Shown here piece after piece: positions 1-28,391 of a DNA stretch of 64,000 nucleotides. The notes under the pieces are model-generated. The model was not told the origin of the DNA. It made no database searches and saw only the letters and a list, made by a program, of their open reading frames with translations. The stretch covers positions 2,170,001 to 2,234,000 of the forward strand of contig NZ_CP049989.1 of NCBI RefSeq assembly GCF_011388215.1, written 5' to 3'. The first letter of the stretch is position 1. The number at the start of each line of letters is the position of its first letter. Made by a program: the position numbers and the translations under genes. The stretch comes from Hydrogenophaga crocea (GTDB lineage Bacteria > Pseudomonadota > Gammaproteobacteria > Burkholderiales > Burkholderiaceae_C).

Positions 1-25
1 CGATCCCTTCACCCCACACGAACAC

Positions 26-796
26 ATGAGACCGAACCGACTGCGCGAGATCTGGGCCCAGGGCGGCGCCGTGATCAACGGCTGGCTGGCCATTGCCAAC
101 AGCTTCTCCGCCGAAACCATGGCCCACCAGGGCTGGGACTCGCTCACCATCGACCTGCAGCACGGCGTGGTGGACTACGCGGGCATGGTGCCCATGCTGC
201 AGGCCATCTCCACCACCAACACCGTGCCCGTGGTGCGCGTGCCCTGGCTCGAGCCCGGCATCATCATGAAAACGCTCGACGCGGGCGCCTACGGCGTGAT
301 CTGCCCCATGGTGAACACGCGGGCCGACGCCGAGAAGCTCGTGGCCTACACGCACTACGCGCCGCAAGGCACGCGCAGCTTCGGCCCGGTGCGCGCCCTG
401 CTCTACGGCGGCGCCGACTACCCGCAGCACGCCAACGACACCATCGTGGCCTTCGCCATGATCGAGACCGCGCAGGCGCTCGAGAACCTCGACGACATCC
501 TGGCCACGCCGGGCCTCGACGCGATCTACATCGGCCCCTCGGACCTCTCGCTCGCGCTCGGCTGCAAGCCCGCCTTCGACGACCTCGACCCCAAGGCCGC
601 CGAGGCGGTGCAGCACATCCTCAACCGCGCCAAGGCGCACGGCGTGGTGGCCGGCTGCCACAACGGCACGCCCGAGGCCGCGCTCAAGCGCATCGCCATG
701 GGCTTCCAGTTCGTCACCATCAGCTCCGACGCGCGCCTGATGGCCGCGGGCGCGCAGCAGGTGGTGAACACCATGCGCGCGGGCGTTCGCGCCTGA
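26..796 (+). CDS. HpcH/HpaI-family class II aldolase
   Basis: A 256-residue protein of the HpcH/HpaI family, which are metal-dependent aldolases that cleave 2-keto-3-deoxy or 4-hydroxy-2-oxo acids to pyruvate and an aldehyde. The expected active-site elements are in order: DLQHG with the general base His46, RVPW with Arg71 that holds the pyruvate carboxylate, MIET with metal ligand Glu147, and GPSDLS with metal ligand Asp173. The length is normal for the family. Thirty bases downstream lies a tartronate-semialdehyde reductase-like gene. That pairing is typical of glucarate/galactarate or related sugar-acid routes, where a GarL-like aldolase makes tartronate semialdehyde. The exact substrate cannot be read from the sequence; HpaI (homoprotocatechuate) and GarL activities are both possible. 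Confidence 0.9.
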   Translation: MRPNRLREIWAQGGAVINGWLAIANSFSAETMAHQGWDSLTIDLQHGVVDYAGMVPMLQAISTTNTVPVVRVPWLEPGIIMKTLDAGAYGVICPMVNTRADAEKLVAYTHYAPQGTRSFGPVRALLYGGADYPQHANDTIVAFAMIETAQALENLDDILATPGLDAIYIGPSDLSLALGCKPAFDDLDPKAAEAVQHILNRAKAHGVVAGCHNGTPEAALKRIAMGFQFVTISSDARLMAAGAQQVVNTMRAGVRA

Positions 797-825
797 CCAC
801 CCAACCCCCAACTCCCCTTAGCAGC

Positions 826-1722
826 ATGAAACTCGGATTCATCGGCCTCGGCATCATGGGCACGCCCATGGCGCTGCACCTTGCCAACGCGGGCCACCAG
901 CTCTTTGTGCACACGCGCCGCAGCGTGCCCGAGGCCATCACCGCCGCGGGCGGCGTGCGCGCCGAGAACGCGGCCGCCGTGGCGCGCGAGGCCGAGGTGG
1001 TCTTCACCATGGTGCCCGACACGCCCGACGTGGAAGCCGTGCTGTTCGGCCCCGGCGGCGTGGCCGAAGGCCTGCAAGGCGCGGGCGGCGCGCGCAAGGT
1101 GGTGGTGGACATGAGCTCCATCTCGCCCATGGCCACCAAGGCCTTCGCGCAGCGCATCAACGCGCTCGGCGCCGACTACATCGACGCGCCCGTGTCGGGC
1201 GGCGAAGTGGGCGCCAAGGCCGCGTCGCTCACCATCATGTGCGGCGGCGACGAAGCCGTGTTCCACCGCGTGAAGCCCCTGCTGGAGCTGATGGGCAAGA
1301 ACATCACGCTCGTGGGCGGCAACGGCGACGGCCAGACCACCAAGGTGGCCAACCAGATCATCGTGGCGCTGAACATCGCGGCCGTGAGCGAGGCCCTGGT
1401 GTTCGCGAGCAAGGCCGGCGCCGACCCGGCCAAGGTGCGCCAGGCCCTCATGGGCGGCTTCGCATCCAGCCGCATCCTGGAAGTGCATGGCGAGCGCATG
1501 ATCAAGCGCAGCTTCAACCCGGGCTTTCGCATCAAGCTGCACCAGAAGGACCTGGGGCTGGCGCTGCAGGGCGCGCGTGAACTGGGCGTGGCGCTGCCGC
1601 AGACGGCGGGTGCGGCGCAGCTGATGCAGGCCTGCGCCGCCAACGGCCTGGCCGAGCTGGACCACTCGGCGCTGGTGCAGGCGCTGGAGCTGATGGCCCA
1701 GCACCCGGTTGCCAAGGGCTAA
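826..1722 (+). CDS. glxR: 2-hydroxy-3-oxopropionate reductase-like beta-hydroxyacid dehydrogenase
   Basis: A 298-residue cytosolic beta-hydroxyacid dehydrogenase. The N-terminal Rossmann fold carries GFIGLGIMG (residues 4-12) for NAD(P). The substrate signature APVSGGEVGA holds Ser124, and the catalytic lysine is Lys173 in TTKVANQ. This layout matches GarR/GlxR, which reduce tartronate semialdehyde to D-glycerate; 3-hydroxyisobutyrate dehydrogenase is a close relative and the main alternative. It follows the HpaI-type aldolase by 30 bp on the same strand, so aldolase and reductase probably work in sequence. The 3' end overlaps the end of a convergent hypothetical gene by four bases. Confidence 0.87.
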   Translation: MKLGFIGLGIMGTPMALHLANAGHQLFVHTRRSVPEAITAAGGVRAENAAAVAREAEVVFTMVPDTPDVEAVLFGPGGVAEGLQGAGGARKVVVDMSSISPMATKAFAQRINALGADYIDAPVSGGEVGAKAASLTIMCGGDEAVFHRVKPLLELMGKNITLVGGNGDGQTTKVANQIIVALNIAAVSEALVFASKAGADPAKVRQALMGGFASSRILEVHGERMIKRSFNPGFRIKLHQKDLGLALQGARELGVALPQTAGAAQLMQACAANGLAELDHSALVQALELMAQHPVAKG

Positions 1723-2147
1723 GGCGCCTCAAACAGCAAGCGCCGGCCCGGGGCATCGCCCACGGGCCAACCATCGGTGGTGCGCAACTGCGGATCGCGG
1801 CCCCGCTGAAACAGCAGCGGGCCCACGGCGGGCGATTCGCCCGGCGCGGGCGCCCACAGCGCGCCCATCCAGTCCAGGGCCCAGCGCGGGCCGGCGCCGC
1901 GCCGCGGTGCAAGGCGCGCAATGCCGCTCAAGTCCGCCGCGGGCATCTGGGCCAGCAGATCCAGCAGGCTCGCGTCCCAACCCACCAGCGTGGTCTGCGA
2001 CCGCCGCTGGCCGTGGCAGCACACGTCGTGCACCAGCAGGTACCAGGGCCGCTCCAGCGCGAGCGTGACGGCGGGCCAATGCGTCTGGCGCGGGGCGACC
2101 TGGGACGGGTGGAGGTACTGGAAGAGGCCGGGGGCGGTGATGAACAC
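1719..2147 (-). CDS. hypothetical protein
   Basis: A 142-residue open frame starting with GTG, divergent from the HTH regulator gene. The family was not recognised. The protein has no obvious signal peptide, membrane segment or metal motif. Its composition (several Trp, Cys-Cys at about residues 43-44, a Pro/Arg-rich C-terminal half) is plausible for a real protein. Frames on both strands stay open by chance in this GC-rich DNA, so its reality is uncertain. It would share the 2148-2223 intergenic region with the regulator. Confidence 0.4.
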   Translation of the reverse strand: MFITAPGLFQYLHPSQVAPRQTHWPAVTLALERPWYLLVHDVCCHGQRRSQTTLVGWDASLLDLLAQMPAADLSGIARLAPRRGAGPRWALDWMGALWAPAPGESPAVGPLLFQRGRDPQLRTTDGWPVGDAPGRRLLFEAP

Positions 2148-2209
2148 GGGTGGGCTCCCAAAAATTCGAACACAAAAATGTGCCTCTAATTAGCAATCCC
2201 ACCGTGTTC
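2142..2209. promoter_or_regulatory. three GAACAC-type repeats in a divergent promoter region
   Basis: The hexamer GAACAC occurs twice directly (2142-2147, within GAACACGGGTGGG; and 2168-2173, within TTCGAACAC) and once inverted (GTGTTC at 2204-2209, within CCCACCGTGTTC). The outer copies form an imperfect 12-13 bp inverted repeat around the AT-rich stretch where promoters of the two divergent genes should lie. A short CACA-AAAA-TGTG palindrome sits in the middle copy. Autoregulation by the adjacent HTH protein is an inference. Confidence 0.4.
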
Positions 2210-2223
2210 GGTGCCAACCTTTT

Positions 2224-2688
2224 TTGGTGTCTGAACCAGCACCCGAACTTCTGCCCTGCCTTGCCCGGTTGGCGGCCAACCTGCGCGCGCTTCGAGCGGA
2301 GAGCAACTGGACGTCCAGCGCGCTGGCGGACCAAGCGCATGTGAGCCGACGCATGCTTCAACTGCTGGAGATGGGCAAGGTCAACGTTTCATTGGGCACG
2401 GTGGACAAGCTGGCGCGGGCCCTTGGCGTCACCACGGGTTCGCTGCTGGGGAAACGGCCTATGGCCCGGCAAGCCGGCGCGACCTCGATCGAGCAGGTTC
2501 TGGCATCGAACCTCCAATCGGCGAGGAAAGAGCGGCAGATGACCCAGGAAGCCCTGGCTCAACAATCCGGTGTCAGCAGACCCGTCATCGCGCACATCGA
2601 ACGCCAGGCGCGCAACCCATCGCTGCAAACGCTGGCGCGGCTTGCGGCGGCGCTGGATTTGTCGGTTGAAGGGCTGCTGAGCAGGTAG
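2224..2688 (+). CDS. tandem-domain XRE/Cro-like transcriptional regulator
   Basis: A 154-residue protein made of two consecutive XRE-type helix-turn-helix domains, about residues 15-75 (core ALADQAHVSRRMLQLLEMGK) and 92-153 (core EALAQQSGVSRPVIAHIERQ). Each resembles HipB/C.AhdI-like DNA-binding domains. A single chain with two HTH units may bind as an internal pseudo-dimer. Possible starts are TTG at 2224 or GTG at 2227; neither has a clear ribosome-binding site. It lies upstream of the low-GC DUF4365/AbiGi/HEPN-like genes on the same strand, 369 bp away. It may control that block, or it may belong with the divergent unknown gene. Confidence 0.85.
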   Translation: MVSEPAPELLPCLARLAANLRALRAESNWTSSALADQAHVSRRMLQLLEMGKVNVSLGTVDKLARALGVTTGSLLGKRPMARQAGATSIEQVLASNLQSARKERQMTQEALAQQSGVSRPVIAHIERQARNPSLQTLARLAAALDLSVEGLLSR

Positions 2689-3057
2689 GTGGGGCCGACG
2701 CGGACGGTGTTGCCGTGCGGTTGGGTGTCTCAGTTGCAGCGATTGCAGTCTGTGGAGCCACCTCGCCACCTGTCCGCTCCAGGCCACCTAGCAGTCGTTC
2801 GTCCTCGATACCGCTAGATCGCCTCCTCGCTACTGGCGCGGTGAGGGCTAGACTGCCGCGATCGGCCAGAAGGCTAGCTTCGCATGCGTCGGCCACTTAT
2901 CGCCGCATGGGGAAGCGCGCTGTATGGTTGGGTGACGATCACCCGGCGGTTCAATGAGACCGGAAGCACATGTTGCATCGCTCGTCTGGGACAAGACTCA
3001 GGTGGCCTGCCGAAGTCGCGCAATAGCCACCACTTCAACGACAGCTGGGAGGACTTC
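2689..3057. other. non-coding gap at the left edge of a low-GC block
   Basis: No convincing gene is seen in these 369 bases. The stretch holds four CTAG tetranucleotides within about 90 bp (2788, 2814, 2848, 2874), a word that is rare in proteobacterial chromosomes. Frames running into the next gene from upstream encode nothing recognisable. A promoter for the downstream gene probably lies here, but no clear -10/-35 pair was identified. An AGGA-type Shine-Dalgarno (GGGAGGA) lies at 3047-3053. Confidence 0.5.
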
Positions 3058-4002
3058 ATGGCTGCACCAAAAACCGAGCGTCTCGGCGTTTCAGCACTAG
3101 ACCATTTCTTTTCGCAGCACGGTTGGTTGTTCCGAGAGCAAACCACTCATGACTATGGGATCGATGCGCACATTGAGGTCGTGAATAAGGAGCGACCCAC
3201 TGGAAAGCTTGTCGCCTTGCAGATCAAGAGTGGCACAAGCTTCTTTACCGAGGAGACCAACGACTCTTTCGTTTTTAGGATCGACGATAAGCACGTCGCC
3301 TACTGGGTTGATCACTCAATGCCCGTGGTCCTTGTAATTTACAACCCCGAGACGAAATCGGCCTACTGTCGCGAGGTGACCCGTGACACCGTCATGAAGA
3401 CCGGCAAGCTGTGGAAGATTGAAGTTCCAAAGATTGACATGCTTGCCAATCCAAAAAAGTGGCTTCATGAACTAGAGTCGCTCACCCAGCCAGAGCTGTA
3501 CGTCCGGCGCATGAACAGGTTGCGCATTGATCGTCGTTGGATGGACCTTATCGCGGAAGGTTGGGAAGTTCGTGTGACCTTCGACCATTGGGTAAACAAG
3601 TCACTCCCGCGCTATCAGGTGACGATCTACGCCGACGAAGAGAGGGAGACTTGGCCTACTCTTTACGCCCCCGGAGTTGGGGTCAAAGGCATGCTCCAGC
3701 ACTTTTTTCCATGGGCTGACTTCACCGTGGACGGCGAAGAACATGAGGAGGGGGCACAGGGACGTTACGAGGCGGAGTGCTACTCTCGCTATGACGCGGA
3801 AACCGGGGAAGCGTTCTACGACCAAGAATTCGACGAGTGGTACGAGCCGCCAACAGGCCTTGTCCCAGTCTCAGACAACGGTGAGACCGAAACCTACGTA
3901 TTGATTCTGTCGTTGAACGAGCTCGGCAAAAGCTTCTTGGCCGTTGACGACTATCTTTCTGACCCCGAAGTTCAAGAAGCCATCGGATTCGAACTGAAGT
4001 GA
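3058..4002 (+). CDS. DUF4365-like protein with nuclease-fold signature
   Basis: The start ATG at 3058 has GGGAGGA four bases upstream and begins exactly where similarity begins, although the frame is open further upstream. The product is 314 residues. The N-terminal 150 residues look like DUF4365: a helix with GWLFREQ, then DYGIDAHIEV (residues 32-41) and LQIKSG (54-59). Asp36, Glu40 and the Gln55-x-Lys57 pair fit a PD-(D/E)xK restriction-endonuclease core. The remaining half (from about 170) has no recognised domain and is rich in acidic and aromatic residues. DUF4365 proteins are often found in defence islands, and here two further defence-like genes follow. Base composition is lower in GC than the surrounding chromosome, suggesting transfer. 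A role as effector nuclease is inferred. Confidence 0.8.
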   Translation: MAAPKTERLGVSALDHFFSQHGWLFREQTTHDYGIDAHIEVVNKERPTGKLVALQIKSGTSFFTEETNDSFVFRIDDKHVAYWVDHSMPVVLVIYNPETKSAYCREVTRDTVMKTGKLWKIEVPKIDMLANPKKWLHELESLTQPELYVRRMNRLRIDRRWMDLIAEGWEVRVTFDHWVNKSLPRYQVTIYADEERETWPTLYAPGVGVKGMLQHFFPWADFTVDGEEHEEGAQGRYEAECYSRYDAETGEAFYDQEFDEWYEPPTGLVPVSDNGETETYVLILSLNELGKSFLAVDDYLSDPEVQEAIGFELK

Positions 4003-4122
4003 GATCGGCAGAGCGCGCGGTCAGCCATCGTTCGACAGATGGACTTGGATCCCGGCCATCGGCCAATAGCTGTAGCGCCAATGCACTCTCGTTTTCGAAA
4101 CACGCGCAACCCCAAACCACCC

Positions 4123-4890
4123 ATGCTGCCGACGCTCCGATTCCTCCACTCCATGCGCGAACTCGAGTTCCTTCGGTTGGCGTTGTCAGAGGGACTGATG
4201 TTCACCGATCACGAGGCCGCTTACGTGCCGGCCTCATCGACAGCTGAGTGGGAGGAGCTCTCGGCTGGGGTCACCGTATTGCTCAAGCAGCGGCTCGCAG
4301 CGCTGGGCAAACCGTGGCAGTCTTTGTCGGAGGGCCGGAGAGAAACGCTGATGAGCGGCATCGGCTCAATGCGCGGCAAGATTCCCATGATCTGTTTCAC
4401 GGAGATTCCGGAAGGACGACAGCTCTGGTTCCAACAATTCACGTTCGGCCGGTATGGAGTTGTCGTCTCAAGAAGCTGGCTCGAGCGGAATGGAGGCGAC
4501 CGAGTGCTGTATGTTGGTGAAAACTCCGAACTTTCCCGTCGGTTGTACCGCGTAATTGCGACATTCATGGCCTCGACCGTACTGCTGGGCCAAGATGGAG
4601 AACCGGTATTCTCCCACCACTCCTTCCCGCCGATCCTCGATCTATTGGCGTGCATGGAGCAGCGGTCAAACCTCGCGGAGCTTGAGTGGCGCATCCCCGG
4701 CCATCATGGTTTTCACTCAGGTCAGCGCGCAACGGGAAGGCGACTGCCGCTCCCACTCGGCGACGTCGAAGCAGTTCTTGTGAAAGAGGCATCTGAGGTC
4801 GCAGAGGTTGAGCGCCTAATGCGCACTCTGCCAGGCTCAAACTCACTGCCATCGCTGCCTTTGGTCATCCATCAGCCGGCGGTACTTTGA
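4123..4890 (+). CDS. AbiGi-like abortive-infection family protein
   Basis: A 255-residue protein when started at ATG 4123; in-frame ATGs at 4081 and 4039 would add 14 or 28 residues, and none has a strong ribosome-binding site. The pattern resembles the AbiGi family, annotated in Lactococcus as the antitoxin side of an abortive-infection pair. It shows an N-terminal LRFLHSMRELEFLRLALSEG segment, then KIPMICFTEIPEG (about residues 86-98), then FGRYGVVVSRSWLERNGGDRV (108-128), the equivalent of the family's 'CFtdiPl...YG.fGigfsk.w' pattern. The similarity is from memory and is moderate. The usual AbiGii nucleotidyltransferase partner is not next to it. Its neighbours are a DUF4365 protein and a HEPN-like protein. 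All three genes share strand and low GC. Confidence 0.6.
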   Translation: MLPTLRFLHSMRELEFLRLALSEGLMFTDHEAAYVPASSTAEWEELSAGVTVLLKQRLAALGKPWQSLSEGRRETLMSGIGSMRGKIPMICFTEIPEGRQLWFQQFTFGRYGVVVSRSWLERNGGDRVLYVGENSELSRRLYRVIATFMASTVLLGQDGEPVFSHHSFPPILDLLACMEQRSNLAELEWRIPGHHGFHSGQRATGRRLPLPLGDVEAVLVKEASEVAEVERLMRTLPGSNSLPSLPLVIHQPAVL

Positions 4891-4971
4891 TGCCTAACCT
4901 CTCCATCCAGTGGCTGTCGACTAGGCTTCGCTTTTTTCCGTCTTTCCTGTCGCACGTTGAGCAAATAAACC

Positions 4972-5730
4972 ATGAAGTTGCGCCTCCCATGCATGCAGTG
5001 CTTCCAAGAGCTCGGGAGGCCGACTGACGAGATGTTGCCCGTTGAGCTACGTGATGACGGCCTTTACGAGGCGACATGCGAACGCGGACACACCACAGTG
5101 ACGGCGATCCAAGAGCAAAAGTACGAAGTACTGTTTGACCTTGCTGCGATGGCCCTTCTCGACGGCTATCCTCGCGAAGCAATTGCCAGCATGGCGGCTG
5201 CACTCGAGCGGTTTTATGAGTTCTATGTTTTCGTGCTCTCCTTAGAGCACAAAGTCGATCCCAATGCATTTGCCGCCACCTGGAAGCTAGTGGACAACCA
5301 GTCGGAAAGGCAATTCGGTGCTTATTTGTTTGCTTCACTGCTATACAGCCCGAATACAGTTCCAAAAGTCATTGAGGAAGAGCAACCTTTACTTCCTGGA
5401 ATTGCCAAAGGCCAGACAAGAACGTGGCGTTCGTTCCGCAACGCTGTAGTGCACAAGGGATACATGCCGTCGACGGCAGAGTGCCTTGTGTACGGCGACC
5501 TTGTGTATCGGCACATTACTGAGTTGACGCTCGAGCTGAAGAGGTCATGCGCCGAGTCCCTACAAAGAGCTAACTTTGCGCACCTCTCTAAGGCGCATGG
5601 CGGGGGTAAGTCCGTGTCCACGATGTCTATCCCCACCCTCCTGTCCTTTGTCCGCGAAGAGCGCCCGGCGTCTTTGGCGGAAGCATTGAAAGAACTTGAA
5701 AAGTACCGTACGTGGCTGCACCACAAATGA
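4972..5730 (+). CDS. zinc-finger/HEPN-like protein, possible toxin
   Basis: A 252-residue protein of no recognised named family. The N-terminus has a possible zinc site, Cys7-x2-Cys10 with Cys36-x3-His40 (CERGH). The middle is helical, with ALERFYEFYV (77-86), and then RSFRNAVVHKGY, in which Arg156-x4-His161 (RNAVVH) matches the RX4-6H motif of HEPN ribonucleases. Such a motif after a long helical bundle is typical of HEPN toxins in defence and toxin-antitoxin systems. The gene is 81 bp downstream of the AbiGi-like gene and has similarly low GC. It could be the toxic effector, but the HEPN assignment rests on one short motif plus helix pattern and needs a structure comparison. Confidence 0.65.
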   Translation: MKLRLPCMQCFQELGRPTDEMLPVELRDDGLYEATCERGHTTVTAIQEQKYEVLFDLAAMALLDGYPREAIASMAAALERFYEFYVFVLSLEHKVDPNAFAATWKLVDNQSERQFGAYLFASLLYSPNTVPKVIEEEQPLLPGIAKGQTRTWRSFRNAVVHKGYMPSTAECLVYGDLVYRHITELTLELKRSCAESLQRANFAHLSKAHGGGKSVSTMSIPTLLSFVREERPASLAEALKELEKYRTWLHHK

Positions 5731-5983
5731 AATTCAACGAGCAGCTCCGGCTAACACATTCGCGTTGCGCGCGAGTTTTTCGGCTGGAACCGCGGTAACG
5801 AATGTCTTCTTCCACGACTGAAAAATGCTCACCACTGGCCGATCACAGCAGCCTAGCAATGGCATCGCTAATCGCAAGCGGTCCGCGTCCAAGACCAGCT
5901 TCCAAATGGCTGCGAGGTAACGCAGATCTGACGTTCACGGCGCCGACACGACCGGCAGCACCCCGTCTGAAGCCGCCCCTCCC

Positions 5984-6901
5984 TCACCCCACCACCCCCC
6001 TCACCCCCACCAACAACTCCTCCACCAACGCCCCCGTCGCCGGCGACAAATGGCTCTCCTGCCGCCGGTACAGCGCGTACCGCCGCGTGGTCTGCACGTC
6101 GCGCAGCGGCAGGATGCGGATGGCCTGGCCCGGGTTGGGGGCCGGTGGTTCGAACAGGGCGCGCGGCATCCAGCCCAGGTAGCCGCCGCCCGCCACCAGC
6201 CGGCGCAGCAGGTTGATGGACTTCGATTCCACGCTCGCGGCGGGCACCGGCAGTTGGCGCTCGGCAAACAGTTGCTGCCAGTCTTCGCGCGGCTGCAGGC
6301 CGCGCGGCACCAGGGCCCAGCGCTGCTCGGCCAGGTCGGCCAGGCGCATGTCGGTGCGGCCGCACAGCGGGTGGGTTTCGCCCAGCACCACGTAGCAGCC
6401 TTCCTGCCACGCGCCTTCGGTGATGCGCTCCAGCCCGGGCGCGGTGGGCACGTCGAAGGTCAGGGCCAGGTCGATCTCGCCGCGCGCCAGCTGCGCCAGC
6501 AGGTCTTCGGTGAGGCCCTCTTCCACGCTGGCCTGCAGCCCGGGCCACTTCTGCAGCAGGCGCTCCACCGTGGCGGGCACAAAGCTCTCCAGCGCGCTGG
6601 CCACCGCGCCCACGCGCACGCGGCCGCGGCCCATGCCGCGCAGCGCCTCGATGGCCTGCACCGCGCGCGCCGATTCGTTCAGCAGCAGCCGTGCATGGGG
6701 CGCGAGTTGCGCGCCGTACTCGGTGAGCGTGGCGCCGCGCTGGTGGCGCTCGAACAAGGGCACGCCCAACTGCTCTTCCAGCCGCTTCACGATGCGGCTC
6801 AGGGCCGGCTGCGTCACGTGCAGCACCTCGGCCGCCTTGCCCAGCGAACCGCAGTCGACGATGGTCTGAAAAGCGTGGATCTCGCGCAGGTTCAGCAGCA
6901 T
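5984..6901 (-). CDS. LysR-family transcriptional regulator
   Basis: A 305-residue LysR-type regulator started at ATG 6901; a TTG start four codons upstream is possible but less likely. The N-terminal winged HTH is complete (LGKAAEVLHVTQPALSRIVKRLEEQLGVPLFER, in two pieces about residues 19-55), followed by the co-inducer-binding domain. It is transcribed divergently from a class II aldolase gene across 150 bp, the standard LysR arrangement, and so probably controls that gene. The ligand cannot be inferred. Confidence 0.93.
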   Translation of the reverse strand: MLLNLREIHAFQTIVDCGSLGKAAEVLHVTQPALSRIVKRLEEQLGVPLFERHQRGATLTEYGAQLAPHARLLLNESARAVQAIEALRGMGRGRVRVGAVASALESFVPATVERLLQKWPGLQASVEEGLTEDLLAQLARGEIDLALTFDVPTAPGLERITEGAWQEGCYVVLGETHPLCGRTDMRLADLAEQRWALVPRGLQPREDWQQLFAERQLPVPAASVESKSINLLRRLVAGGGYLGWMPRALFEPPAPNPGQAIRILPLRDVQTTRRYALYRRQESHLSPATGALVEELLVGVRGVVG

Positions 6902-7051
6902 GGCAGGGCCCAAAAAAGTTCGGCGGCATCTTACGGGCGGGCGCGCGCGGGTCGCACCGCATCGGTATGCCTTGGGGCCGATTCGTCATGCCCGCGCGCG
7001 GCAGGCCGTGCCTAGACTGCGTCGCCCCCTCCACCCCCCAAGACACAACCC

Positions 7052-7840
7052 ATGCTCACCAACGAAGAACTCCAGCGCGTGCTGCAGCAGCGCCAGCAAC
7101 TGCGCACCCAGGTGTCGCCCGAGGAATGGGCCGCGCGGGTCGAGCTCGCGGCCTGCTACCGGCTCATCGCGCACTTCCGCATGACGGACTGGATCTACAA
7201 CCACATTTCGTCGCGCGTGCCGGGCTCGCACGAGCACTACCTCATCAACCCCTTCGGCCTGCTGTACGAAGAGGTGTCGGCGTCGAACCTGGTGAAGGTG
7301 GACGTGCACGGCCGGCTGGCGGAAGACGTGCCGCTGGAGGTGAACCCCGCGGCCTTCGTGATCCACGGCGCGATCCACACCGCGCGGCCCGACGTGGGCT
7401 GCGTGCTGCACACCCACACCGCCGCGGGCGTGGCGGTGGCCGCGCAGGCCGATGGCTTGCTGCCGATTTCGCAGCACGCCATGCGCGTGTACGGCCAGAT
7501 CGGCTACCACGACTTCGAGGGCATTGCGCTGGACAACGCCGAGCAGCAGCGGCTGGTGGCCGACATGGGGTCCAACAACATCCTCATCCTGCGCAACCAC
7601 GGCCTGCTCACCGCGGGCCGCACCGTGCCCGAGGCCTTCGAGCTCATGTTCTACCTGGAGCGCGCCTGCCAGATCCAGATCGCGGCCACCTCGGGGCCGC
7701 AGAAGCTGGTGTTTCCCTCGGCCGAGGTGCAGTCGCGCGCCATCGCGCAGTTCGCGGACTCGCCCTCGTACATCCAGGGGCGCGACTGGCTCGCGCTCAT
7801 CCGGCTGCTCGACCGCATCGATCCTTCGTACCGCAGCTGA
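7052..7840 (+). CDS. class II aldolase/adducin-family protein
   Basis: A 262-residue protein of the class II aldolase/adducin head family. Zinc ligands are visible as HTHT (His120 and His122) and a later His in RNHGLL, with the AFVIHGAIHTAR segment preceding them. The family includes fuculose-phosphate and ribulose-phosphate aldolases and epimerases, but this branch, with the longer N-terminus, is usually of unknown substrate. It stands alone behind a divergent LysR gene, which suggests an inducible catabolic step. Confidence 0.88.
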   Translation: MLTNEELQRVLQQRQQLRTQVSPEEWAARVELAACYRLIAHFRMTDWIYNHISSRVPGSHEHYLINPFGLLYEEVSASNLVKVDVHGRLAEDVPLEVNPAAFVIHGAIHTARPDVGCVLHTHTAAGVAVAAQADGLLPISQHAMRVYGQIGYHDFEGIALDNAEQQRLVADMGSNNILILRNHGLLTAGRTVPEAFELMFYLERACQIQIAATSGPQKLVFPSAEVQSRAIAQFADSPSYIQGRDWLALIRLLDRIDPSYRS

Positions 7841-26048: not shown

Positions 26049-28391
26049 ATGTTGCAGAACCGCTCCCGCCGGGCCGCCCTGGCCCTGGCCCTGTCCGCCG
26101 CGCTCGCGGCAGCGCTGCCGGCCACCGTATCGGCTTTCGACATGCCGTCGCTCGACCGCATCGTCCACTACCAGCCCAAGCTGCCGCTGCAGGTGTTCAC
26201 CGCCGACGGCGAAGAGATCGCGCAGTTCGGCGCCGAGCGGCGCGAGTACGTGCCGCTCGCGCGCATCCCGCTGCAGCTGCAGCAGGCGCTGCTGGCGGTG
26301 GAAGACGCGCGCTTTCGCGAGCACTCGGGCGTGGACCCCAAGGGCATGGCGCGCGCGCTGGTGGCGGTGATCACGGGCGGGCGCAAGCAGGGCGCGTCCA
26401 CCATCACGCAGCAGCTCGTGCGCACCATGCTGCTCACGCGCGAGTTCTCGGCCGAGCGCAAGGCCAAGGAGATCTGGCTCGCGCTCAAGCTCGAGAACGA
26501 GCTCTCCAAGGACCGCATCCTCGAGATCTACCTCAACGAGATCTTTCTGGGCCAGCGTGCCTATGGCTTCGCGGCCGCGGCCAAGACCTACTTCGGCAAG
26601 CCGCTCGACCAGCTCACGCTGGCCGAGAACGCCATGCTCGCGGGCCTGCCGCAGAACCCCTATTACGCCAACCCGGTGGCGAACTTCCAGCGCGCCACGC
26701 AGCGCCAGCGCGTGGTGCTCGAGCGCATGCGCGAGACCGGCGTGATCACCGAACAGCAGCTCGCGGCCGCGCGCGCCGAGAAGCTCGTGATCCGCACGCC
26801 CGGCCTGCGCAGCGTGCACGCCGCCCACGTGGCCGAGATGGCGCGCCGCGCGGTGGTGGAGCGCTTCGGCACCGAGGCCTATTCCAGCGGCCTGCGCGTG
26901 ACCACCTCGCTCGTGGCCGCCGACCAGCGCGCGGCCCACGCCGCGGTGCAGCGCGGCGTGCTGGCCTTCGAGCGGCGCGGCGCCTGGCGCGGGCCCGAAG
27001 ACACCGAATCGCTGCCCGCGGGCACGGGCGCCGAGCTCGAACGCGCCGCGGCCGAGGCGCTCAAGGACCACCGCGACGACGAGACCCTGCGCGTGGGCAT
27101 CGTGCTCGACGCCAACCCCAAGGCCGTGCAGGTGCAGCTCGCCACCGGCGAGCGCGTGACGCTGCAGGGCGAGGGCCTGCGCTGGGCGCAGCGCGGGCTC
27201 GATCCCAAGGCCAAGGCGCCGCTCAAGCTCGCGCGCGGCGCGATCGTGCGCGTGGTGAGCACGGGCAAGGCCAAGGACAGGAAGACCGATGTGTGGGCCA
27301 TTTCGCAGTGGCCCGAGGTCGAGGCCGCGCTGGTCGCCATGGACCCGCAGAGCGGCCGCATCCGCGCGCTGGTGGGCGGCTTCGACTTCACCAACCAGCC
27401 GTTCAACCACGTCACCCAGGGCTGGCGCCAGCCGGGCTCGGCGATCAAGCCGCTGCTGTACTCGGCCGCGCTCGAATCGCGCGTGATGCCGGGCACGCTG
27501 GTGGACGACCTGCCCTTCACCGCGGCCAACGGCTGGAGCCCCACCAACAGCAACCACCAGACGCTGGGCCCGATCACGGTGCGCCACGCGCTCGCGGTGT
27601 CGAGCAACCTCGCGAGCATCCGCGTGCTGCAGCACGTGGGCACGCCCACGGCGCGCGACTGGCTGGGCCGCTTTGGCCTCGACCCGGCGCGCCAGCCCGA
27701 CGACCTCACGCTCGCGCTCGGCACCGGCAGCGCCACGCCGATCCAGATGGTGCAGGCCTATGCCACGCTGGCCAACGGCGGCTGGCGCGTGCCGCCCGTG
27801 GTGATCGAGAAGATCACCGACGCGCAGGGCAAGGTGCTGTTCGAAGCGCCGCCGGCCGCTCCGCTCACCGAAGACACCCGCGCCATTCCCGCGCGCAATG
27901 CCTACGTGATGTCCAGCCTGCTCAACGAGGTGACGCGCAGCGGCACCGCGGCGCGCGCGCAGGCCGTGCTCAAGCGGCCCGACATCTACGGCAAGACCGG
28001 CACCACCAACGAGGCGGTCGACGCCTGGTTCGTGGGCTTCCAGCCCACGCTGGCCACGGCCGTCTGGGTGGGTTACGACAAGCCGCGCAGCCTGGGCGGC
28101 GCCGAATCGGGCGGGCGCATCGCGCTGCCGATCTGGACCGACTACATGGGCGTGGCGCTCAAGGGCAAACCGGTGCAGCCCCTGCCCGAGCCGCCCGAGG
28201 GCGTGGTGGCCAGCGGCGGCGATCTGGTCTACAGCGAATGGCGCGACGGCGGCTGGGTGTCGGCCATCTCGGACACCGCGGGCGTGCAGTACCAGAGCAG
28301 CTTCGGCGCCGGCGTGGGCCGCGTGTTCGACGCCATCGGCGACTGGCTGCGCAGCGGCCGGCCCGCACAGCCCCAGCCGCCGGGGCAGTGA
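26049..28391 (+). CDS. mrcA: penicillin-binding protein 1A (bifunctional)
   Basis: A 780-residue class A PBP that polymerises and cross-links peptidoglycan at the inner membrane. Residues about 8-30 form the membrane anchor. The GT51 domain shows AVEDARFREHSGVD (catalytic Glu85), QGASTITQQLVR and KEIWLALKLENELSKDRILEIYLNE (in pieces). The transpeptidase has Ser464-x-x-Lys467 (SAIK), Ser518-Ser-Asn520 and Lys649-Thr-Gly (KTGTTN). The start ATG 26049 precedes the anchor; the frame is open upstream only as background. Confidence 0.95.
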   Translation: MLQNRSRRAALALALSAALAAALPATVSAFDMPSLDRIVHYQPKLPLQVFTADGEEIAQFGAERREYVPLARIPLQLQQALLAVEDARFREHSGVDPKGMARALVAVITGGRKQGASTITQQLVRTMLLTREFSAERKAKEIWLALKLENELSKDRILEIYLNEIFLGQRAYGFAAAAKTYFGKPLDQLTLAENAMLAGLPQNPYYANPVANFQRATQRQRVVLERMRETGVITEQQLAAARAEKLVIRTPGLRSVHAAHVAEMARRAVVERFGTEAYSSGLRVTTSLVAADQRAAHAAVQRGVLAFERRGAWRGPEDTESLPAGTGAELERAAAEALKDHRDDETLRVGIVLDANPKAVQVQLATGERVTLQGEGLRWAQRGLDPKAKAPLKLARGAIVRVVSTGKAKDRKTDVWAISQWPEVEAALVAMDPQSGRIRALVGGFDFTNQPFNHVTQGWRQPGSAIKPLLYSAALESRVMPGTLVDDLPFTAANGWSPTNSNHQTLGPITVRHALAVSSNLASIRVLQHVGTPTARDWLGRFGLDPARQPDDLTLALGTGSATPIQMVQAYATLANGGWRVPPVVIEKITDAQGKVLFEAPPAAPLTEDTRAIPARNAYVMSSLLNEVTRSGTAARAQAVLKRPDIYGKTGTTNEAVDAWFVGFQPTLATAVWVGYDKPRSLGGAESGGRIALPIWTDYMGVALKGKPVQPLPEPPEGVVASGGDLVYSEWRDGGWVSAISDTAGVQYQSSFGAGVGRVFDAIGDWLRSGRPAQPQPPGQ

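Follow-up and report, generated by a model that had tools for sequence, protein, structure and literature searches.

A low-G+C gene block of Hydrogenophaga crocea as a probable decayed integron cassette array of three singly captured genes

We analyzed a block of genes at about 2.7–5.9 kb of a 64,000-nt stretch (the window) of Hydrogenophaga crocea contig NZ_CP049989.1, whose genome is one contig of 4.56 Mb. The block follows a tandem helix-turn-helix (HTH) regulator gene with a divergent 142-aa open reading frame (ORF) as its partner, and carries a DUF4365 gene (gene 1), an AbiGi-like gene (gene 2) and a gene for a Cys/His and HEPN-like protein (gene 3; Table 1). The block is probably a decayed integron cassette array of three unrelated, singly captured genes, each of which probably stands alone. 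Integron descent accounts for more of the facts than its rivals do. The original prediction had placed the HTH gene and the three other genes in one new defence module; our data replace the proposed three-gene system with three single genes, which can be tested one by one.

Four ORFs indeed lie on the plus strand at 2224–5730, and the low-G+C patch is real. The mean G+C content of the window was 0.705 (standard deviation 0.044, 64 bins of 1 kb), and the bins at 3001, 4001 and 5001, with 0.537, 0.583 and 0.555, were the sole bins below 0.63 among the 64. Around the HTH gene, 500-base windows across 2001–2750 gave 0.650–0.656. Hence the patch begins 3′ of the HTH gene and contains three genes, all on the plus strand, and not the four that had been claimed. 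The spacers that separate the HTH gene and genes 1, 2 and 3 are 369, 120 and 81 bases long. No transposase or phage gene was seen in 1719–5983, either in the ORF list or in scans with Pfam, PADLOC, NCBIfam and PHROGs.

In the genomes and loci searched, members of the trio were found elsewhere only one at a time. Among 299 same-family genomes from one draw, gene 1 was matched in 5 (E ≤ 1e-10), gene 2 in 1 and gene 3 in 2 (both E ≤ 1e-6), and the H. crocea genome was the sole one with matches to more than one of them. In 369 genomes of the class, genes 2 and 3 matched solely the H. crocea genome, and a two-row profile of gene 2 gave two matches in 213 genomes of the phylum, the H. crocea genome among them. 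Plasmids and phages were searched with genes 2 and 3, plasmids also with gene 1, and genome contigs with gene 3; viral contigs held no relative of any of the three genes. When the three genes were compared by tblastn with 36 fetched loci, one gene was present at 19 loci and two were present at none. No second trio or pair came out of these searches, in which neighbourhoods were inspected at the 36 fetched loci and some plasmid matches were left unopened. In six opened plasmid or phage records with gene 3 relatives, no neighbour was annotated as DUF4365 or AbiGi (most are 'hypothetical'), and tblastn likewise detected none. The co-occurrence check proposed in the original prediction thus found no further locus, among those searched, that combines as many as two members of the trio, and the result from the 19 loci together with that from the 299 genomes means that the reading as a multi-gene module fails. 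Among ten papers that mention DUF4365, none describes such a trio in its title or in the opening of its abstract.

The HTH gene belongs to a separately inherited unit. Together with the 142-aa ORF, which has no Pfam, PHROGs or NCBIfam match, it spans 1721–2688, and this unit is present in three of 60 genomes of the genus with 1, 4 and 5 copies, ten in all: in the window, in L048 (two copies) and in each of L070–L076. The 142-aa ORF adjoins the HTH gene in all ten, that is, in the window and in nine copies found by tblastn. Since the HTH gene travels with the 142-aa ORF and elsewhere stands beside other cargo, it is not a regulator of the trio, and its predicted role as a part of the module was dropped. 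Nine same-genus stretches carry the gene at 826–1722, which we take to be 3-hydroxyisobutyrate-dehydrogenase-like, and in these stretches similarity to the window stops at 1698–1729; in one of them, L048, the two unit copies lie some kilobases downstream.

Cargo at the HTH end of the unit varies. At 100–1600 bases 3′ of the HTH gene, G+C content was 0.56–0.60 in 7 of the 10 copies, the window included (two of them over 531 and 663 bases only), and 0.66–0.72 in the other 3. L071 and L073 represent one site in two genomes, with flanks 86–87% identical and 1,609 versus 62 bases from the HTH stop to the right flank; they form a natural pair with and without cargo. L075 has the left junction of the window (window 25–2688 at 82% to L075 3785–6495) and none of the three genes. 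The cargo of L070 includes an AbiV HEPN protein (1.1e-30), a DUF4062 protein (1.7e-28) and a third protein with matches to models of CBASS effectors and SduA. Other cargo comprises a weak MtlR match (L075), a RelE-like gene (L071) and Imm70 (L072), and in L076 the opposite side of the unit (655–5183) carries genes for McrC (PF10117, 2.6e-102) and a large AAA protein. No such cargo was seen in L048a and L073, and several of the scanned ORFs matched no family; this is a plain tally, and some of these genes may stand there by chance. A more speculative idea, which we hold to be doubtful, is that the HTH and 142-aa pair forms a chromosomal element of a kind not described so far. Cassette arrays and other defence-like cargo of low G+C content would be inserted, swapped and dropped at its HTH end time and again, and the element might control or permit its cargo. 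The trio of the window would then be one load, and the phrog_19381 Zn-ribbon HEPN protein and the DUF4365 protein with its own C-terminus would be two putative single-gene defence types.

Integron arrays occupy the equivalent slot in a congener. L070 6408–10546 and L075 6630–10252 are integron arrays in which palindromic sites with RYYYAAC / GTTRRRY ends lie between the genes. A covariance model of attC was trained on eight sites, seven from L070 and L075 and one from L002, with no sequence from the window, and it recovered three untrained sites in L070 and L075 at 37.6–54.4 bits. An arm-pairing scan also detects sites of L070, L075 and L002. Remnants of an integrase remain at the right end of these arrays, as two pieces with stop codons in L075 and as 29 residues at 76% in L070. 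An integron integrase above the family cut-off was present in one of eight genomes searched (G324, 508 bits). The G324 stretch with this intact integrase, L092, gave no attC site with the arm-pairing scan (≥7.5) or the covariance model (E ≤ 1).

Relatives of genes 1 and 3 also have cassette contexts. At L077, the gene 1 relative has on one side an ilvD-like gene, named by eye, and on the other a fragment of the IntI N-terminus (52.5% over 40 residues, E 2e-6), and the covariance model places an attC-like site at 3640–3759 (18.4 bits, E 0.2). Xanthomonas integrons located at ilvD have been described (PMC12444791). At L002, the gene 3 relative lies directly 3′ of attC-like sites at 85–178, which was in the training set, and at 832–891, which was found by the arm-pairing scan only. 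At L079, which has a gene 3 relative of 38% identity, an upstream attC-like sequence was seen by eye only and was reported by neither scan.

In the window itself, two scans point to one site between genes 2 and 3. Its 71 bases are the top covariance-model match of the 64 kb (21.4 bits, E 0.017) and also the top match of a two-end weight matrix built from other loci without any window sequence (27.0, the next being 22.3). The site begins one base past the stop codon of gene 2 and takes up most of the gap before gene 3, and its orientation relative to the genes is as in L070 and L075. Several observations weigh against a cassette origin. The covariance-model lead over the runner-up (18.1 bits, at 26550) is only 3.3 bits. 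The best arm-pairing score in the block was 8.5, equalled by 9% of 100 shuffles, and the same scan found no site ≥10.5 in the 64 kb. No inverted repeat was found in 2600–6050, no second attC-like site in the block and no integrase piece in 1601–7100 (best E 0.58). The trio runs away from the HTH gene, whereas the genes of L070 and L075 run towards it, and L013, the locus of a gene 2 relative, has no attC-like site by either the arm-pairing scan or the covariance model. Finally, the H. crocea genome has no integron integrase above the cut-off; weak recombinase matches occur there as well as in all 14 control genomes. A complete integron in this genome was rejected on the same ground.

Among the closest known systems are integron arrays and CALINs with anti-phage genes (PMC12409362, PMC12444791). 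Small anti-phage cassettes are known to be stored in integrons; in Vibrio cholerae they make up at least 16 of 179 cassettes (PMC12409362). The block likewise holds short, single-gene, defence-like cargo with low G+C content and an attC-like site, and arrays surround gene 1 and gene 3 relatives and fill the corresponding slot in a congener. However, it has one degenerate attC-like site, and its genome is without an integrase above the cut-off. As a CALIN requires at least two attC sites (PMC12444791), the block is formally not a CALIN.

We infer cassette recombination as the origin of the block because an array lies at the same left junction in L075, because the L071/L073 pair marks the slot, and because the contexts of L077 and L002, the attC-like site of the window, the low G+C content and the lack of co-occurrence agree with it. 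According to our model, the three genes would have been taken up separately by integron-type capture and left in the slot just 3′ of the HTH unit. The integrase and most attC sites would then have been lost and the array worn down. Each gene would be its own unit and work alone. A small genomic island, in which three foreign genes arrived through plasmid, phage or transposon fragments and the likeness to an integron is coincidental, could explain the weak integron marks of the window. It would also fit the occurrence of gene 3 relatives on plasmids and SPbeta phages, of gene 1 relatives on 54 plasmid records and of a gene 2 relative on one plasmid (L013) near an IS91-type transposase and an integrase. 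We nevertheless consider it unlikely, given that a congener has an integron array at this left junction, that gene 1 and 3 relatives stand in cassette contexts, and that an attC-like site lies in the right place and orientation; that no transposase or phage gene was seen in the scanned region speaks against it too.

Two further alternatives were weighed. A genuine multi-gene defence module, in which the HTH regulator, a DUF4365 nuclease, the AbiGi-like protein and a HEPN RNase act jointly, would account for three effector-like families standing adjacent on one strand without intervening genes. Yet we find it very improbable, considering the 19 relative-bearing loci with one gene each, the single genome of 299 on more than one list, the inheritance of the HTH gene with the 142-aa ORF beside other cargo, and the spacer lengths. 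A cassette origin could also hold without any antiphage role, the genes being silent or inert, or stabilizing in the manner of toxin–antitoxin genes. In favour of this, the AbiGi match is marginal, the roles of the three genes are predicted only, and RelE-like and Imm70 genes occur as cassettes near the unit. Still, alignments of genes 1 and 3 with their relatives show conserved motifs of catalytic type, and the gene 2 relative has a CAP12/Pycsar-type TIR protein and an annotated cyclase as neighbours; we regard cargo without an antiphage role as possible but rather unlikely. A defence role for the three genes is suggested by their families and the company that they keep.

Gene 1 is, as predicted, a DUF4365 protein of PD-(D/E)xK type. 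Its D36 and E40 are conserved in 6 of 6 aligned proteins (here and below, the window protein counted) and its Q55-x-K57 in 5 of 6, with R instead of K in the remaining one. Among solved structures, residues 17–145 matched PDB 9jsb (DREN-APAZ) best (1.5e-13), which is a nuclease-APAZ subunit from a short-Argonaute system. In TmuRE, Q62 and K64 of the DUF4365 domain were taken as the active site and mutated to obtain an inactive form (PMC10810196). Gene 1 thus has the DUF4365 nuclease domain with Q-x-K in common with SPARDA, the DUF4365-APAZ short Argonaute (PMC10810196), but its PADLOC and PDB matches stop at residues 131–145, the APAZ domain is unmatched and the C-terminal part differs. Moreover, no Argonaute match was found in Pfam or PADLOC among the four block proteins, and membership of SPARDA was dropped for want of an APAZ match and an Argonaute. 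The protein may act as a PD-(D/E)xK nuclease that has a C-terminal half of its own for sensing or targeting. One of its relatives, matched over 94% of its length, adjoins ATPase genes and an LA2681 HEPN gene. The closest relative (66% identical) lies outside Hydrogenophaga, at L077, where 1660–4554 forms a short array of an antitoxin-like gene (PF21716) with its partner, the DUF4365 relative, a 188-aa ORF without family assignment and the IntI fragment.

The Cys/His cluster and RNAVVH of the original prediction are present in gene 3, as CxxC, CxxxH and R156-N157...H161. All nine aligned proteins, which come from Proteobacteria, Paenibacillus plasmids and one Bacillus SPbeta-type phage, retain R-N-x-x-x-H, and eight of them retain the Cys/His set (CxxC...CxxxH); the ninth is an annotated coding sequence with a later start. 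The motif rule for HEPN proteins is R-x4-6-H with a polar residue after R (PMC3710099), and all nine have this motif with N after R. No Pfam, NCBIfam or PADLOC match was obtained; in PHROGs the protein falls into phrog_19381, which has no assigned function, and the match to ApeA was weak (E 0.22). In a model of low confidence (pLDDT 59.8), the protein forms a small beta ribbon and helices. In Foldseek, this model matched 2q00, listed as a HEPN structure in PMC3710099, with a probability of 0.90–0.92 but E of only 0.36–0.54; no structure reached E ≤ 0.001, and the other top matches were mostly 14-3-3 proteins at low probability. Gene 3 likely encodes a HEPN protein, its modelled fold being suggestive. 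It shares R-N-x3-H, a mostly helical model and the cassette context of its relatives with HEPN RNases (PMC3710099), among which is an integron-cassette HEPN family (PDB 3jrt). It differs from them in forming a separate family with a Cys/His ribbon, and its sequence matches no named HEPN family significantly. The protein could act as an R-x4-H RNase that, once triggered, halts growth or phage replication. Its closest relative (56% identical) is that of L002. A family member lies at L007 5001–5726 in Bacillus phages SPbetaL4 and SPbetaL6 (the SPbetaL4 locus was inspected). On a Methylobacter plasmid (L008 4570–6492), a Zn-ribbon HEPN-like gene is apparently split, with its halves flanking an IS630-family transposase gene.

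Gene 2 resembles AbiGi weakly. Its match to the Pfam AbiGi profile PF10899 was marginal (23.3 bits, cut-off 22.4) and covered residues 114–173 only, or 59 of 185 profile positions; the PADLOC AbiGi model gave 1e-5, and a relative of 42% identity scored 28.4 bits against the AbiGi profile. Its start was put at 4123 instead of 4039 because a Sphingobium relative begins at the equivalent residue. The predicted lack of an AbiGii partner was borne out, with no Pfam or PADLOC match among the four block proteins. Compared with AbiG (AbiGi/AbiGii) of Lactococcus (PMC3985639), gene 2 has this partial profile match but no neighbouring AbiGii, and its assignment as an AbiG system was dropped for the latter reason. 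A structure predicted from the single sequence was discarded (pLDDT 38.5). The product may be an accessory defence protein. On the Sphingobium plasmid of L013, the AbiGi-like gene at 5968–6756 is unannotated and lies directly 3′ of two genes, one for the CAP12/Pycsar-type TIR protein (PF10137, 2.6e-24) and one that carries the annotation guanylate cyclase.

Our results suggest that integron cargo can persist as an unmarked low-G+C patch after loss of the integrase and most attC sites. Thus, such leftover patches can be mistaken for operons. In addition, the Zn-ribbon HEPN family of phrog_19381, with members in Proteobacteria, on Paenibacillus plasmids and in SPbeta-type phages, lacks a match in Pfam, NCBIfam and PADLOC and is a fair candidate for plaque testing with phages.

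Table 1. Features of the block and of the adjoining HTH unit in window coordinates
Feature	Position	Strand	Evidence
142-aa ORF without family, divergent partner of HTH gene	1719..2147	-	adjoins HTH gene in 10/10 copies
Tandem-HTH (XRE-type) regulator	2224..2688	+	PF01381 2.4e-27, two stretches
Gene 1, 314 aa, DUF4365 nuclease domain of PD-(D/E)xK type and a C-terminal part of its own	3058..4002	+	PF14280 4.9e-35
Gene 2, AbiGi-like, 255 aa from ATG at 4123 (ORF opens 4039)	4123..4890	+	PF10899 23.3 bits
Degenerate attC-like site between genes 2 and 3	4892..4962	-	covariance model and two-end weight matrix
Gene 3, N-terminal Cys/His (Zn-ribbon-like) and HEPN-like, 252 aa	4972..5730	+	phrog_19381 4.4e-53, R-N-x3-H

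The next gene 3′ of gene 3 encodes a LysR regulator. Relatives of this gene and of the gene at 7052–7840 (together 5984–7840 of the window) lie near each other in the same-genus genome G308, with another gene between them.

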